Below, piece after piece: positions 18,740 to 23,943 of a DNA stretch of 45,963 nucleotides. The notes beneath the pieces are model-generated. The model saw only the letters and a list, made by a program, of their open reading frames with translations. It was not told the DNA's origin and did not search any database. The first letter of the stretch is position 1. Every line of letters begins with the position of its first letter. This DNA is from Burkholderiales bacterium (GTDB taxonomy: Bacteria; Pseudomonadota; Gammaproteobacteria; Burkholderiales; Burkholderiaceae_D), in NCBI GenBank assembly GCA_947475815.1, contig CANJOT010000005.1:1-45963 (forward strand), in the 5' to 3' direction. The position numbers and the translations under genes are program-made.

Positions 18740-19204
18740 TCAGTGCGTCACGCGGCTCGTGCCGCCGCTGGAGAGAATGCGCACGCGCTCACCGGGTCGG
18801 AACGCCTCGTCGGCCTCCTGAACGATGGCACGTGTCTCGCCGCCGTCCAGGCGGACGATGATTTCCAGGCCTTTGTGCTGGTTCTGCGAATTCTCGATAG
18901 CCTGTCCTGCCATGCCGCCCGCGACCGCGCCGAGCACGGCCGTGATGCTGCTGCCACGGCCACCGCCCATGCCGCCGCCGGCGATGCCACCGACCAGACC
19001 GCCAGCAACCGTACCGGCACCATTGTTTTGTCGCTGGATGGTGATTTCACGCACGCTCTCGACCGTGGCCAGGCGCACGATCTGTTCGCGCTGTACCTGG
19101 CCGGCGCTGTAGACGTTGGAAGAATTGCTCTGCGTGGCGCAGCCGGCGGCGCCGAGCAGCGCCGCGACGATCAGGGGAACAACGAGGCGTGAGCGGGTAT
19201 TCAT
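18740..19204 (-). CDS. Glycine-zipper 2TM lipoprotein, SlyB/Pcp-like
   Basis: A 154-residue envelope protein. The N-terminus has a lipoprotein signal ending LLGAAGC (Cys at about 22), so it is probably lipidated. The centre is a glycine-zipper double helix (AGGLVGGIAGGGMGGG and LGAVAGGMAGQAIE, about residues 65-105) typical of the Rick_17kDa/SlyB family, followed by a small beta domain (IIVRLDGGETRAIVQ). The start at 19204 is fixed by GGAG 8 nt upstream; an ATG 12 nt earlier contains that ribosome site. It is the last gene of the long reverse run, 31 nt after the kinase stop. Confidence 0.88.
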   Translation of the reverse strand: MNTRSRLVVPLIVAALLGAAGCATQSNSSNVYSAGQVQREQIVRLATVESVREITIQRQNNGAGTVAGGLVGGIAGGGMGGGRGSSITAVLGAVAGGMAGQAIENSQNQHKGLEIIVRLDGGETRAIVQEADEAFRPGERVRILSSGGTSRVTH

Positions 19205-19235
19205 GAGATTCTCCATTCAAAATGTCTGGCAGGGC

Positions 19236-20183
19236 TTACCAAGGGGTACTGCCAAATGCGGTCTTGAATACTTCGGCAATTTCGGCGCGCAAAGGTTCAT
19301 GGTTCTGCGGTCCCTTGCTGGCAATTTTGATCGATCCCATCGTGCTTGCCAAGCGTCCCGTCGTGGTCCAGTCGTAGCCCTGGGCAATGCCGTAGAGCAG
19401 GCCGCCACGATAGGCGTCGCCGCAGCCGGTCGGGTCGGCCAGCGCGCGCGCCGTCACGCAGGGAATCTCAAGCACCTTGTTGTCGGCATAGATCAGCGAA
19501 CCTTCGCCACCGCGCGTGATGATCAGGGCCTTGAGTGAACGCGCCAGTTGCTCCGGCGAGCGGCCGGTGCGGTCGCACAGGAGCTTGGCTTCGTAGTCGT
19601 TGACGGTAACATAGGTGGCCTGCTCCACCAGAGCCAGCAGATCGGGCCCGTCGAACATCGGCAGGCCCTGGCCCGGATCGAAAATGAAGGGCACGCCGGC
19701 TTCAGCAAATTCACGCGCGTGGTTCACCATGCCTGAACGTCCGTCCGGAGCAACGATGCCCAGGCCGATCGGATTGCCCGATGTGTGGGCATCGCTGACA
19801 TGATTCTGTTCGGAGAAGTTCATCGCACCCGGATGAAAGGCCGTAATCTGGTTGTCCGCCAGATCGGTGGTGATGAAGGCCTGAGCCGTGAAACTGCCAG
19901 CGACCTGACGGATGTGGCTGGTGTCCAGACCGACCTTGGCCAGACGCGCGAAATACGGCGCGGCATCATCACCAACGGTGGCCATGGGCACGGCGTCGCC
20001 CCCAAGAAGCTTCAGGTTGTAGGCGATGTTGCCGGCGCAGCCACCAAACTCGCGACGCATTTCCGGCACCAGAAAGGCGACATTGAGAATGTGCACCTGG
20101 TCGGGCAGGATCTGGTCCTTGAAGTGACCGGCAAAAACCATGATGGTGTCATAGGCGATGGAACCGCAGATCAGGGTACGCAT
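19236..20183 (-). CDS. PfkB-family carbohydrate kinase (adenosine kinase-like)
   Basis: A 315-residue ribokinase-superfamily sugar/nucleoside kinase. The N-terminal strand LICGSIAYD, the GGCAGNIAYNLKLLGG region (about 46-61) and the C-terminal anion-hole motif DPTGCGDAYRGG with catalytic Asp at 256 are present; the usual GAGD is GCGD here. Similar betaproteobacterial proteins are often annotated as adenosine kinase, but the substrate cannot be read from the sequence. It lies 63 nt downstream of the PrmA-DUF3426 gene and upstream of the glycine-zipper gene, all on the same strand. Confidence 0.88.
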   Translation of the reverse strand: MRTLICGSIAYDTIMVFAGHFKDQILPDQVHILNVAFLVPEMRREFGGCAGNIAYNLKLLGGDAVPMATVGDDAAPYFARLAKVGLDTSHIRQVAGSFTAQAFITTDLADNQITAFHPGAMNFSEQNHVSDAHTSGNPIGLGIVAPDGRSGMVNHAREFAEAGVPFIFDPGQGLPMFDGPDLLALVEQATYVTVNDYEAKLLCDRTGRSPEQLARSLKALIITRGGEGSLIYADNKVLEIPCVTARALADPTGCGDAYRGGLLYGIAQGYDWTTTGRLASTMGSIKIASKGPQNHEPLRAEIAEVFKTAFGSTPW

Positions 20184-20246: not shown

Positions 20247-22103
20247 TCAGGGATAGAACAGAACACTGCGAAAGCCGGTTGCGTGCGTGCCGTGCAACTC
20301 GAAACTGATCCGCACCGGCAATTCACTGTTGGCGGCAATGCCGTCCCGGATGGTGGCGTGCTGTTCCGGTGCCAGGTATTGCGCCGGTGTCAGCACGCGG
20401 CGCACCAGCGGCTGGTTTTGGGTATCGAGCAGAGTCAGTTCGACATGCGGGTAACGCAAGGCAATCGCGCCGCGGTTACGCAACAACGCGACGTAGGCAA
20501 AAGCATCGTGCTGCTGCGGCAGCAATTGCAGCTCGGCGGATTCAATCGACAGGCTTTCAATGCCGGCGGGCGCTTCAATCTGGCAGGCAAAGTTCTGGCA
20601 GATCTCGCTGAGGGCTGGCTTGAGTACGGGCCAGTGGGCTGCGACCTCGTTGCGCCAGATGTACAGCGCTTGTACGCCGCCGACCAGAGAGAGCAGCACG
20701 ATGAGCACCGCGAACAGCCGGCGTCGTGCCGGCCGGGCTGCGGCGATGGCCCCGGAATTGCGCAGAAAACCGGGTTCGGCGAGGGTTTCCATGGGCGCCG
20801 GGTTGCTGGCGTCGTTGGCCGCCTGGGCCAGAGTGCTGGGTAGTGGTGTGCTGCCTGAGGCCGGGGAGGGCGCCGCCGCCGGCGTGGCGCTCGGCGCGGG
20901 TGTTTCGGCCGCAGTGCTGGCCGGCGCTGGCGCGCTTGCCGCCGTGTCGGGTGTCCCGATTTGCACGGGCAGGGTCAACGGCTCTGCGAGTTCCGGCGCC
21001 GCATCGCCGCTGGCGCTCAGCAGACCCGCGCCGCTCGGGAAGGCTTCGATTTCGACCGCGTGCTCGAGGGCGTTGAAGACTGCGTTGCAGATGCCGCAAC
21101 GCACCTGGCCCGCATGGCTGCGGATGGCTTCCGATTCAAAACCAAACACGGTTTCACATTCAGGGCAGCGCGTCGCGCGCTCTGGCTGCGCCGTGCCGGC
21201 GCGGCTGCCCACCAGACAGACCCAGCCGTCCTCGACGCGCCACAGATCCATGTTGATCATCGGTGCATAGACCGCGGCGACCTCCTGCCACTGACGTTCG
21301 AGGATGCCGGAGAGCACCAGCGTGCCGCCAGGGGCGACCAGATCGCACAACAGTGGCGCAAGAACCTTCAGCGGGTTGGAGAGGATGTTGGCGACCACCA
21401 CGTCGGCCGGTTCGGCGTGGAAGTCATCGGGCTCGTAAAACTGCGCCGTGACGCCATTGATCTGGGCGTTGCTGATCGAAGCGCTGACCGCGTGGCTGTC
21501 AATGTCGGTGCCGATGACGTGGCCGGCACCCAGCAAGCTGGCTGCAATGGCCAGGATGCCCGAACCGCAACCGTAGTCGATGACCTGCGCGCCGGGCTGC
21601 ATGTTCTTTTCCAGCCAGGCCAGGCACAGCCGCGTGGTGGGATGGCTGCCCGTGCCAAAGGCCAGACCGGGGTCGAGTTGCAGCAGCACAGCATTGCTCT
21701 GCGCCACCGCGGCGACCGGCGTGGCATGCCAGGAGGGCACGATCCAGACGCGTTCACCGACGTGGATGGGTTCAAACTGCGATTGCGTCAAACGGACCCA
21801 GTCCTGCTCGGCCACCGTGCGCCGCGACGGTGCCGGCAGGCTCGTTGTGCCGGCGTCGGCACAGGCTGCGGCATAGATGGCATCGACATTGGCCTGATCG
21901 TCAAACAGGGCGATGATGATGCTGTGGTTCCAGGCTGCTTCGGAGGGTTCGCCGCCCGGCTCGCCGAACAGCGGCTGCTCGTCCTCGCTGCCGGCATCGG
22001 CATCCTCGATGGCCGCCGACAGCGCGCCGGCCTCCAGCAAGGCGTCCGAGAGGGCCTCGGCGTCGTCGCGGGTGACCCGGATGATCAGTTCGATGTAGGC
22101 CAT
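20247..22103 (-). CDS. prmA: Fusion: ribosomal protein L11 methyltransferase (PrmA) + DUF3426 zinc-ribbon membrane protein
   Basis: One uninterrupted 618-codon frame holds two proteins that are normally separate neighbours. Residues 1-301 are PrmA, which trimethylates ribosomal protein L11 using SAM: FGTGSHPTTRLCL (149-161), SAM motif IDYGCGSGILAIAA (175-188), ANILSNPL (238-245), and the usual end EDGWVCLVGSR. Residues 311-350 are an N-terminal zinc ribbon (C313-x2-C316, C336-x2-C339), then a Pro/Ala-rich linker, one membrane helix (about 463-483) and the DUF3426 domain to the end. No stop codon and no ATG lies at the junction. The only in-frame alternative start is GTG at 21212-21210, with a poor ribosome site. 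Start at 22103 gives MAYIELIIRV, the standard PrmA beginning. It follows accC by 13 nt. Confidence 0.92.
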   Translation of the reverse strand: MAYIELIIRVTRDDAEALSDALLEAGALSAAIEDADAGSEDEQPLFGEPGGEPSEAAWNHSIIIALFDDQANVDAIYAAACADAGTTSLPAPSRRTVAEQDWVRLTQSQFEPIHVGERVWIVPSWHATPVAAVAQSNAVLLQLDPGLAFGTGSHPTTRLCLAWLEKNMQPGAQVIDYGCGSGILAIAASLLGAGHVIGTDIDSHAVSASISNAQINGVTAQFYEPDDFHAEPADVVVANILSNPLKVLAPLLCDLVAPGGTLVLSGILERQWQEVAAVYAPMINMDLWRVEDGWVCLVGSRAGTAQPERATRCPECETVFGFESEAIRSHAGQVRCGICNAVFNALEHAVEIEAFPSGAGLLSASGDAAPELAEPLTLPVQIGTPDTAASAPAPASTAAETPAPSATPAAAPSPASGSTPLPSTLAQAANDASNPAPMETLAEPGFLRNSGAIAAARPARRRLFAVLIVLLSLVGGVQALYIWRNEVAAHWPVLKPALSEICQNFACQIEAPAGIESLSIESAELQLLPQQHDAFAYVALLRNRGAIALRYPHVELTLLDTQNQPLVRRVLTPAQYLAPEQHATIRDGIAANSELPVRISFELHGTHATGFRSVLFYP

Positions 22104-22116
22104 GGTTACCCGGAGT

Positions 22117-23469
22117 TTATGCCTTCTTGGTTTCGGCCAGCCGGTTTTCGAGGTAATGGATGCTGGTGCCCCCCTCGATGAAGCGCGCATCCGTCAAGAG
22201 TTCCCGATGCAGCGGGATGTTGGTCAGGATGCCCTCGACCACCATTTCGGAGAGGGCGACACGCATGCGCGCCAGCGCCTGGGCACGGTCGGTGCCGTAA
22301 GTGATCACTTTGCCGACCATCGAGTCATAGTGCGGCGGCACGAAATATCCCGAATAGGCATGCGAATCAACACGCACGCCCGGGCCACCCGGCGGATGCC
22401 AGGCCGTGATGCGACCCGGCGAGGGCGTGAAGAGGAACGGATCTTCGGCGTTGATGCGGCATTCGATGGCATGGCCGCGCAGCACAATGTCCTTCTGGCG
22501 GTAACGCAGGCGTTCGCCGGCGGCGACGCGGATCTGCTCCTGAACGAGGTCGATGCCGGTGATGGCTTCGCTGACCGGATGTTCCACCTGGATGCGGGTG
22601 TTCATCTCGATGAAATAGAACTCGTTGTTCTCATACAGAAATTCAAAGGTGCCGGCGCCGCGGTAACCCATCTTGCGGCAGGCCTCGGCGCAGCGGTCGC
22701 CGATGCGCTCGATCAGGCGCCGTGGAATGCCCGGTGCCGGGGCCTCTTCAATGACCTTTTGATGGCGGCGTTGCATCGAGCAGTCGCGTTCTCCAAGCCA
22801 GATGGCATTTTTGTGACTGTCTGCGAGGATCTGGATTTCGATGTGGCGCGGGTTTTCCAGGAATTTCTCCATGTAAACCTCGGGATTGCCAAACGCGGCC
22901 CCGGCCTCGGTGCGTGTCATGATGACGGCGTTGACCAGCGCCGCCTCGGTGTGCACGACGCGCATGCCGCGGCCGCCGCCGCCGCCCGCCGCCTTGATGA
23001 TCACCGGATAGCCGACCTGACGACCGATACGCACGATTTCTTTCGCATCGTCGGGCAGGGCGCCTTCAGAACCGGGCACACAGGGCACGCCTGCGGCAAT
23101 CATGGTGCGCTTGGCATTGACCTTGTCACCCATGGTGCGGATGGTTTCCGGCGTCGGTCCGATGAAGGTAAAGCCGCTTTGCTCCACCCGTTCGGCGAAG
23201 TCGGCGTTTTCCGCCAGAAAGCCATAGCCGGGATGGATGGCTTCGGCGTCGGTCACTTCGGCCGCGCTGATGATCGCCGGCATGTTGAGGTAACTCAGCG
23301 CCGAGGGTGCCGGGCCGATGCAGACCGACTCATCGGCCAGCTTGACGTATTTTGCTTCGCGATCAGCCTCGGAATGTACGACCACGGTGCGGATGCCCAT
23401 TTCGCGGCAGGCACGCTGGATGCGCAAGGCAATTTCGCCGCGATTGGCGATGAGGATTTTTCCGAACAT
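22117..23469 (-). CDS. accC: Acetyl-CoA carboxylase, biotin carboxylase subunit
   Basis: AccC carboxylates biotin on AccB with ATP and bicarbonate, the first half of malonyl-CoA synthesis for fatty acids. The 450 residues match the family: N-terminal [13 protein letters not shown], the ATP-grasp glycine loop [11 protein letters not shown] (159-169), the catalytic region [14 protein letters not shown] and YDSMVGKVI near the C-terminus. It lies 12 nt after accB and 13 nt before the PrmA fusion, in one operon. Confidence 0.98.
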
Positions 23470-23481
23470 GACAGCCTTTGA

Positions 23482-23943
23482 TTAAGCGATGATGAACAGT
23501 GGCTGGCCGAACTCGACCGGCTGACCATTCTCGACCAGGATTTGCTGGATCACGCCGTCAAAGCCGGCTTCGATTTCATTGAGCAGTTTCATGGCTTCGA
23601 TGATGCACACATGGTCGCTGGCGCGCACGGTCGAGCCGAGTTCGACGAAGGTCGGTTTGTCCGGTGCTGGCGAGCGATAGAAGGTGCCGACCATGGGCGA
23701 GGTCACCGTTTTGCCGGCGGGCACGGGCGCCACCACCGGTTCGTCCGGGGCCGGTGCAGCCACGGTCGCTGCCTGTGACGGCATCTGCATCATGGGTGCC
23801 GTCTGGAAGGCATAGCCCTGCGGGGCCTGTTGCGGGGTCGAGCGAACGATCCTGACCTTGCTTTCACCTTCGGTGACTTCGAGTTCGGCAATGCCGGACT
23901 CGGCGACGAGGTCTATGAGCGTCTTCAGCTTTCGCAAATCCAT
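23482..23943 (-). CDS. accB: Acetyl-CoA carboxylase, biotin carboxyl carrier protein
   Basis: AccB carries the biotin that shuttles carboxyl groups between AccC and the carboxyltransferase. It has 153 residues: a short N-terminal domain (MDLRKLKTLIDLV), a Pro/Ala-rich mobile linker (about 45-80) and the biotinyl domain with the modified K119 in IIEAMKLLNE. GTGGAG upstream of the start is a good ribosome site. A reverse-strand TAAAAT at 23991-23986 may be a promoter, so accBC could be expressed apart from aroQ, which ends 91 bp upstream. Confidence 0.97.
   Translation of the reverse strand: MDLRKLKTLIDLVAESGIAELEVTEGESKVRIVRSTPQQAPQGYAFQTAPMMQMPSQAATVAAPAPDEPVVAPVPAGKTVTSPMVGTFYRSPAPDKPTFVELGSTVRASDHVCIIEAMKLLNEIEAGFDGVIQQILVENGQPVEFGQPLFIIA

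Follow-up and report, generated by a model that had tools for sequence, protein, structure and literature searches.

The prmA–DUF3426 locus

The window, meaning the whole stretch of 45,963 nucleotides analysed here from a Burkholderiales bacterium, harbors on its minus strand a gene in which prmA runs in frame into the coding sequence of a zinc-ribbon membrane protein with a DUF3426 domain (Table 1). The stop codon of this frame lies at 20247–20249, and not a single stop interrupts the 618 codons that precede it from 22103 onwards. A mechanical reading gives a longer open reading frame of 647 amino acids, as a same-frame ATG is present 87 nt upstream of 22103, within accC; position 22103 is taken as the start because it agrees with the starts of PrmA relatives. 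Beyond the kinase gene that follows downstream, a small protein is encoded at 18740–19216 (minus strand), which has a lipoprotein-like N-terminus and a glycine-rich GLVGGIAGGGMGGGRG stretch, and gives no Pfam match at 1e-8.

Table 1. Features of the fused gene and of its surroundings (positions are those of the window)
Feature	Positions	Strand	Basis and remarks
accB, biotin carboxyl carrier protein	23482..23943	-	Pfam
accC, biotin carboxylase	22117..23469	-	Pfam; upstream of prmA at a distance of 13 nt
prmA–DUF3426 fused gene	20247..22103	-	618 codons plus stop; ORF reading, Pfam, NCBIfam; sole genome copy
PrmA part, residues 1–301, ribosomal protein L11 methyltransferase	21201..22103	-	PF06325, TIGR00406, 1ufk alignment, AlphaFold, Foldseek
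GTG (Val298), possible yet unsupported internal start	21210..21212	-	Sequence reading; test on relatives
Joint, residues 302–310, AGTAQPERA; site of the stop and ATG of relatives	21174..21200	-	Sequence comparison
MJ0042-type zinc ribbon, residues 311–345, cysteines 313, 316, 336 and 339	21069..21173	-	PF13717, PF13719, TIGR02098
Pro/Ala-rich linker, residues 346–461, about 100 predicted disordered (354–454)	20721..21068	-	AlphaFold
Single membrane helix, about residues 462–482, after RPARRR	20658..20720	-	Hydropathy; model helix 454–482
C-terminal DUF3426 domain, predicted periplasmic, Ig-like beta sandwich	20250..20657	-	PF11906 (1.8e-39), AlphaFold, fold comparison
PfkB-family carbohydrate kinase	19236..20183	-	Pfam, L003 translation; downstream, as in relative L003

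Domain organization of the fused protein

The encoded chain consists of PrmA, a nine-residue joint, the MJ0042 zinc ribbon, a Pro/Ala-rich linker, a membrane helix and the DUF3426 domain, in this order. Pfam recognizes PrmA at residues 3–301 (PF06325, 294.6 bits, 1.2e-87), Zn_ribbon_4 at 311–344 (7.1e-8) and DUF3426 at 467–612. The in-frame fusion that had been claimed from the sequence in an earlier note is thus confirmed by an unbroken minus-strand frame with full-length domains on either side, and the product of about 65 kDa guessed there agrees with the calculated mass of 65.0 kDa. The genome was searched for a second copy of PrmA, PF13717 or PF11906 elsewhere, and none was found. In the AlphaFold model of the whole protein, PrmA and the C-terminal domain are predicted confidently and the ribbon reasonably so, residues 354–454 are disordered and a helix spans residues 454–482; the pTM of 0.43 leaves the mutual arrangement of the domains undefined.

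The PrmA part resembles the enzymes of Escherichia coli and Thermus thermophilus in its full-length domain, SAM motif, catalytic histidine position and fold. Its TIGR00406 match reaches 224.7 bits against a cut-off of 183.15, the SAM motif DYGCGSG is found at residue 176, and Foldseek matches it to solved PrmA structures. His154 aligns with His104 of T. thermophilus PrmA, as counted in the 1ufk alignment, and the latter is the catalytic histidine (PMC3347575). PrmA, which usually occurs free in the cytoplasm and is about 300 residues long, here carries a membrane-protein extension. The genes for its substrate L11 (rplK, searched as the L11 N-terminal domain PF03946) and for L1 (rplA, PF00687) are absent from the assembly, while both were found in 14 of 14 control genomes; this probably means that part of the rplKAJL region failed to assemble.

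The extension has the features of the separate DUF3426 proteins encoded next to prmA in Burkholderiales and other Gammaproteobacteria, that is, the ribbon, a Pro/Ala linker, one helix, the DUF3426 domain and a place directly downstream of prmA. These proteins start on their own just past the prmA stop, whereas the fused gene has neither that stop nor that start. All four ribbon cysteines are present in a CXXC–CXXC arrangement. The earlier note had described a 160-residue Pro/Ala-rich linker; about 160 residues do separate the end of PrmA from the helix, but these include the folded ribbon, and the disordered part covers only about 100 of them. The helix coincides with the most hydrophobic stretch of the protein (462–482). 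The C-terminal domain, modelled by itself, attains a pLDDT of 94. Fold comparison of this domain (20250–20747, minus strand) places it nearest to GH2 Ig-like, ApaG-like and Wzt carbohydrate-binding domains, with Z scores of 7–9 and a best value of up to 9.2 for GH2 domains; judging from the model, this Ig-like likeness is perhaps just a common arrangement that gives no clue to function.

A single membrane helix between a cytoplasmic ribbon and a periplasmic DUF3426 domain is an architecture also known from ZitP of Caulobacter (PMC5182063, PMC5182065), in which the ribbon is cytoplasmic and the DUF3426 domain is predicted to be periplasmic (PMC5182063). Unlike the fused protein, ZitP is a free protein with no PrmA attached. 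Its Trp35, four residues past the last cysteine, binds PopZ (PMC5182065); in the fused protein this position is occupied by Phe343 and the PopZ-binding tryptophan is absent, so that nothing points to a PopZ-dependent role like that of ZitP.

The joint and its counterpart in relatives

PrmA ends with EDGWVCLVGSR at residue 301, and the chain continues through the joint into TRCPEC, whose first cysteine is residue 313. In the fused frame there is neither a stop nor an ATG between the end of PrmA and the ribbon, just as the earlier note had read it. Relatives have at this position a stop followed by M-A-L-A-T-R-C-P. Genus g9 (genomes G008, G073 and G097), the closest by this region among the matches listed, has stop-CG-ATG, and its ribbon is out of frame with PrmA. 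Compared with g9, the joint has lost the stop, lost the ATG and changed its frame register. One path from an ancestral TAG-CG-ATG, fitted to g9 by eye and short of proof, would be the change of TAG to CAG, of ATG to AGA, and a two-base deletion in the third codon.

The distribution of the fusion was assessed with a query of 120 residues across the joint, searched against 392 genomes of the family, 349 of the order and 369 of the class, a comparison that a very divergent fusion could escape and in which the genus of the fusion is represented by one genome. The order, Burkholderiales, was assigned from the sequences. The query matched in 385 of the 392 family genomes. A hand count of the family matches listed gives about 100 genomes whose ribbon shares the frame of PrmA, each of them with one stop or more. 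Among the matches listed for the order and the class, every joint-spanning alignment contains a stop as well. As two full-length conserved domains are joined, and all of those same-register family genomes keep a stop, the fused frame is not a chance event. Long open frames in some relatives had also been suspected of being fusions, such as one of 761 amino acids in G018. In G018, however, PrmA terminates 25 nt ahead of the codon for the first ribbon cysteine, PrmA and ribbon use different frames, and the extra length is upstream.

A search of genome contigs gave two relatives only, an Alcaligenaceae MAG and a Chromatiales MAG, and in both loci the prmA stop is present and the genes are separate. 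No relative of the fused gene was found in the viral contigs searched, and no paper naming PrmA and DUF3426 together was found in the literature searched. The statement that the two genes are normally adjacent yet separate is therefore borne out in the loci compared, and the alignment with relatives that the note had proposed as a check finds the fusion in one genome, every other listed joint-spanning alignment having a stop. In the sequence the fusion is genuine, and it is apparently lineage-specific. It is a curious gene fusion of one genome and not a new kind of system; its absence from all relatives checked points to a local, perhaps neutral, event.

Probable translational coupling of the ancestral pair

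Most of the 74 relative loci compared, which include some genomes twice, have the prmA stop and the following start −4 to +6 nt apart, and the ribosome-binding site of the second gene is weak (mean −2.2 kcal/mol). Termination–reinitiation requires a stop very close by and drops sharply with distance from it (PMC10666635). Short gaps and weak ribosome-binding sites make a layout that suits this mechanism, and the ancestral prmA–DUF3426 pair looks translationally coupled. The tight spacing is seen order-wide (loci L003–L077, most at −4 to +6 nt), which suggests that translational coupling has been conserved, perhaps together with a functional link.

Loss of the stop removes the termination–reinitiation route, and a 65 kDa fusion made by read-through becomes the most likely outcome. 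The ribbon–DUF3426 codons are presumably still translated, given that about 300 of them stay open and keep conserved residues in spite of having neither the stop nor the ATG.

Alternative explanations

It could be argued that one frame yields two proteins, the ribbon–DUF3426 part being made also, or mainly, from an internal start, either the GTG at 21212 or a rare ACG at 21194. In-frame GTGs near the joint are found at 21212 (V298), 21149 (V319) and 21104 (V334), the latter two inside the ribbon. The first would give a product beginning near the start position of the relatives, and it is preceded by an anti-Shine–Dalgarno pairing of −6.0 kcal/mol, which was considered as a sign of initiation and rejected after comparison with 61 relatives: pairing at the homologous codon is equal or stronger in 37 of the 61, and none has a start codon there. 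The match thus reflects conserved PrmA codons and is not evidence of a start, and its spacing to the GTG is long; the separate start at 21212 suggested by the earlier note is left unsupported. Ribosomes usually initiate only weakly within a frame that is being actively translated, and an internal start in a gene deprived of the prmA stop leaves a free PrmA unexplained. This alternative is unlikely, although it is the least unlikely of those considered.

Another explanation is a sequencing or assembly error, the true organism having the stop and the start of its relatives. The assembly is a draft of 377 contigs (98.65% complete) with an estimated contamination of 5.44%, and the fusion is unique among the genomes searched, both of which would fit an error. 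Several independent errors would be required, however: the loss of the stop, the loss of the ATG and the change of register relative to g9 cannot be explained by any single base. Of the one-base shifts in the joint, one opens an alternative frame without a stop and the other leads to stops only within the ribbon codons, so that neither restores a normal gene pair. The hidden stop or frameshift that had been named as a refutation is weakened by this, and an error is unlikely. Scarcely more credible is that the fused chain is made and then cut in the Pro/Ala linker, leaving PrmA soluble and the tethering without meaning. About 100 disordered residues offer many potential cleavage sites, but the similar linkers of the separate DUF3426 relatives are presumably stable.

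Proposed origin and product of the fusion

The best explanation, and a likely one, is a lineage-specific fusion of a coupled gene pair that gives one 65 kDa protein by read-through. The proposed model starts from an ancestor with tightly spaced prmA and DUF3426 genes, the second of which would have been read by ribosomes coming straight from the end of prmA. The stop of prmA would have been lost in this lineage, both frames brought into register and the ATG of the second gene allowed to decay, so that ribosomes would read straight through into a single protein. In this product, a cytoplasmic L11 methyltransferase and the zinc ribbon would be linked by about 100 flexible residues to an inner-membrane helix, with the DUF3426 domain in the periplasm. 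We infer that the fused chain is the main product, that it adopts this topology with PrmA still active, and that the fusion is neutral or slightly beneficial.

PrmA is predicted to be made tied to the inner membrane, probably, and by the predicted topology it would be held on the cytoplasmic side, a placement that the ZitP-like architecture supports. In E. coli, PrmA modifies unbound L11, before its assembly, and prmA mutants of this species show no pronounced phenotype (PMC3347575), which makes the fusion tolerable. Since PrmA acts on free L11, a tether made up of the ribbon and about 100 disordered residues does not have to block methylation, and the enzyme can probably still work on such a long flexible tether.

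Implications for PrmA and its DUF3426 neighbours

The DUF3426 neighbours of prmA are widespread and little studied. Gene fusions often join proteins that cooperate. In addition, very short intergenic gaps are enriched among complex-forming proteins (PMC10666635). On both grounds, the fusion is a first hint at the function of these neighbours, and a functional PrmA–DUF3426 link, resting on one genome, is possible. A bolder proposal takes the fusion as a Rosetta stone, according to which the two proteins of the pair cooperate, PrmA being normally recruited to the inner membrane via the zinc-ribbon DUF3426 protein, and the link has become permanent here; we regard it as improbable. The 65 kDa protein, if it is indeed made, would be a natural membrane-tethered L11 methyltransferase, with which the need of PrmA for free diffusion could readily be tested.
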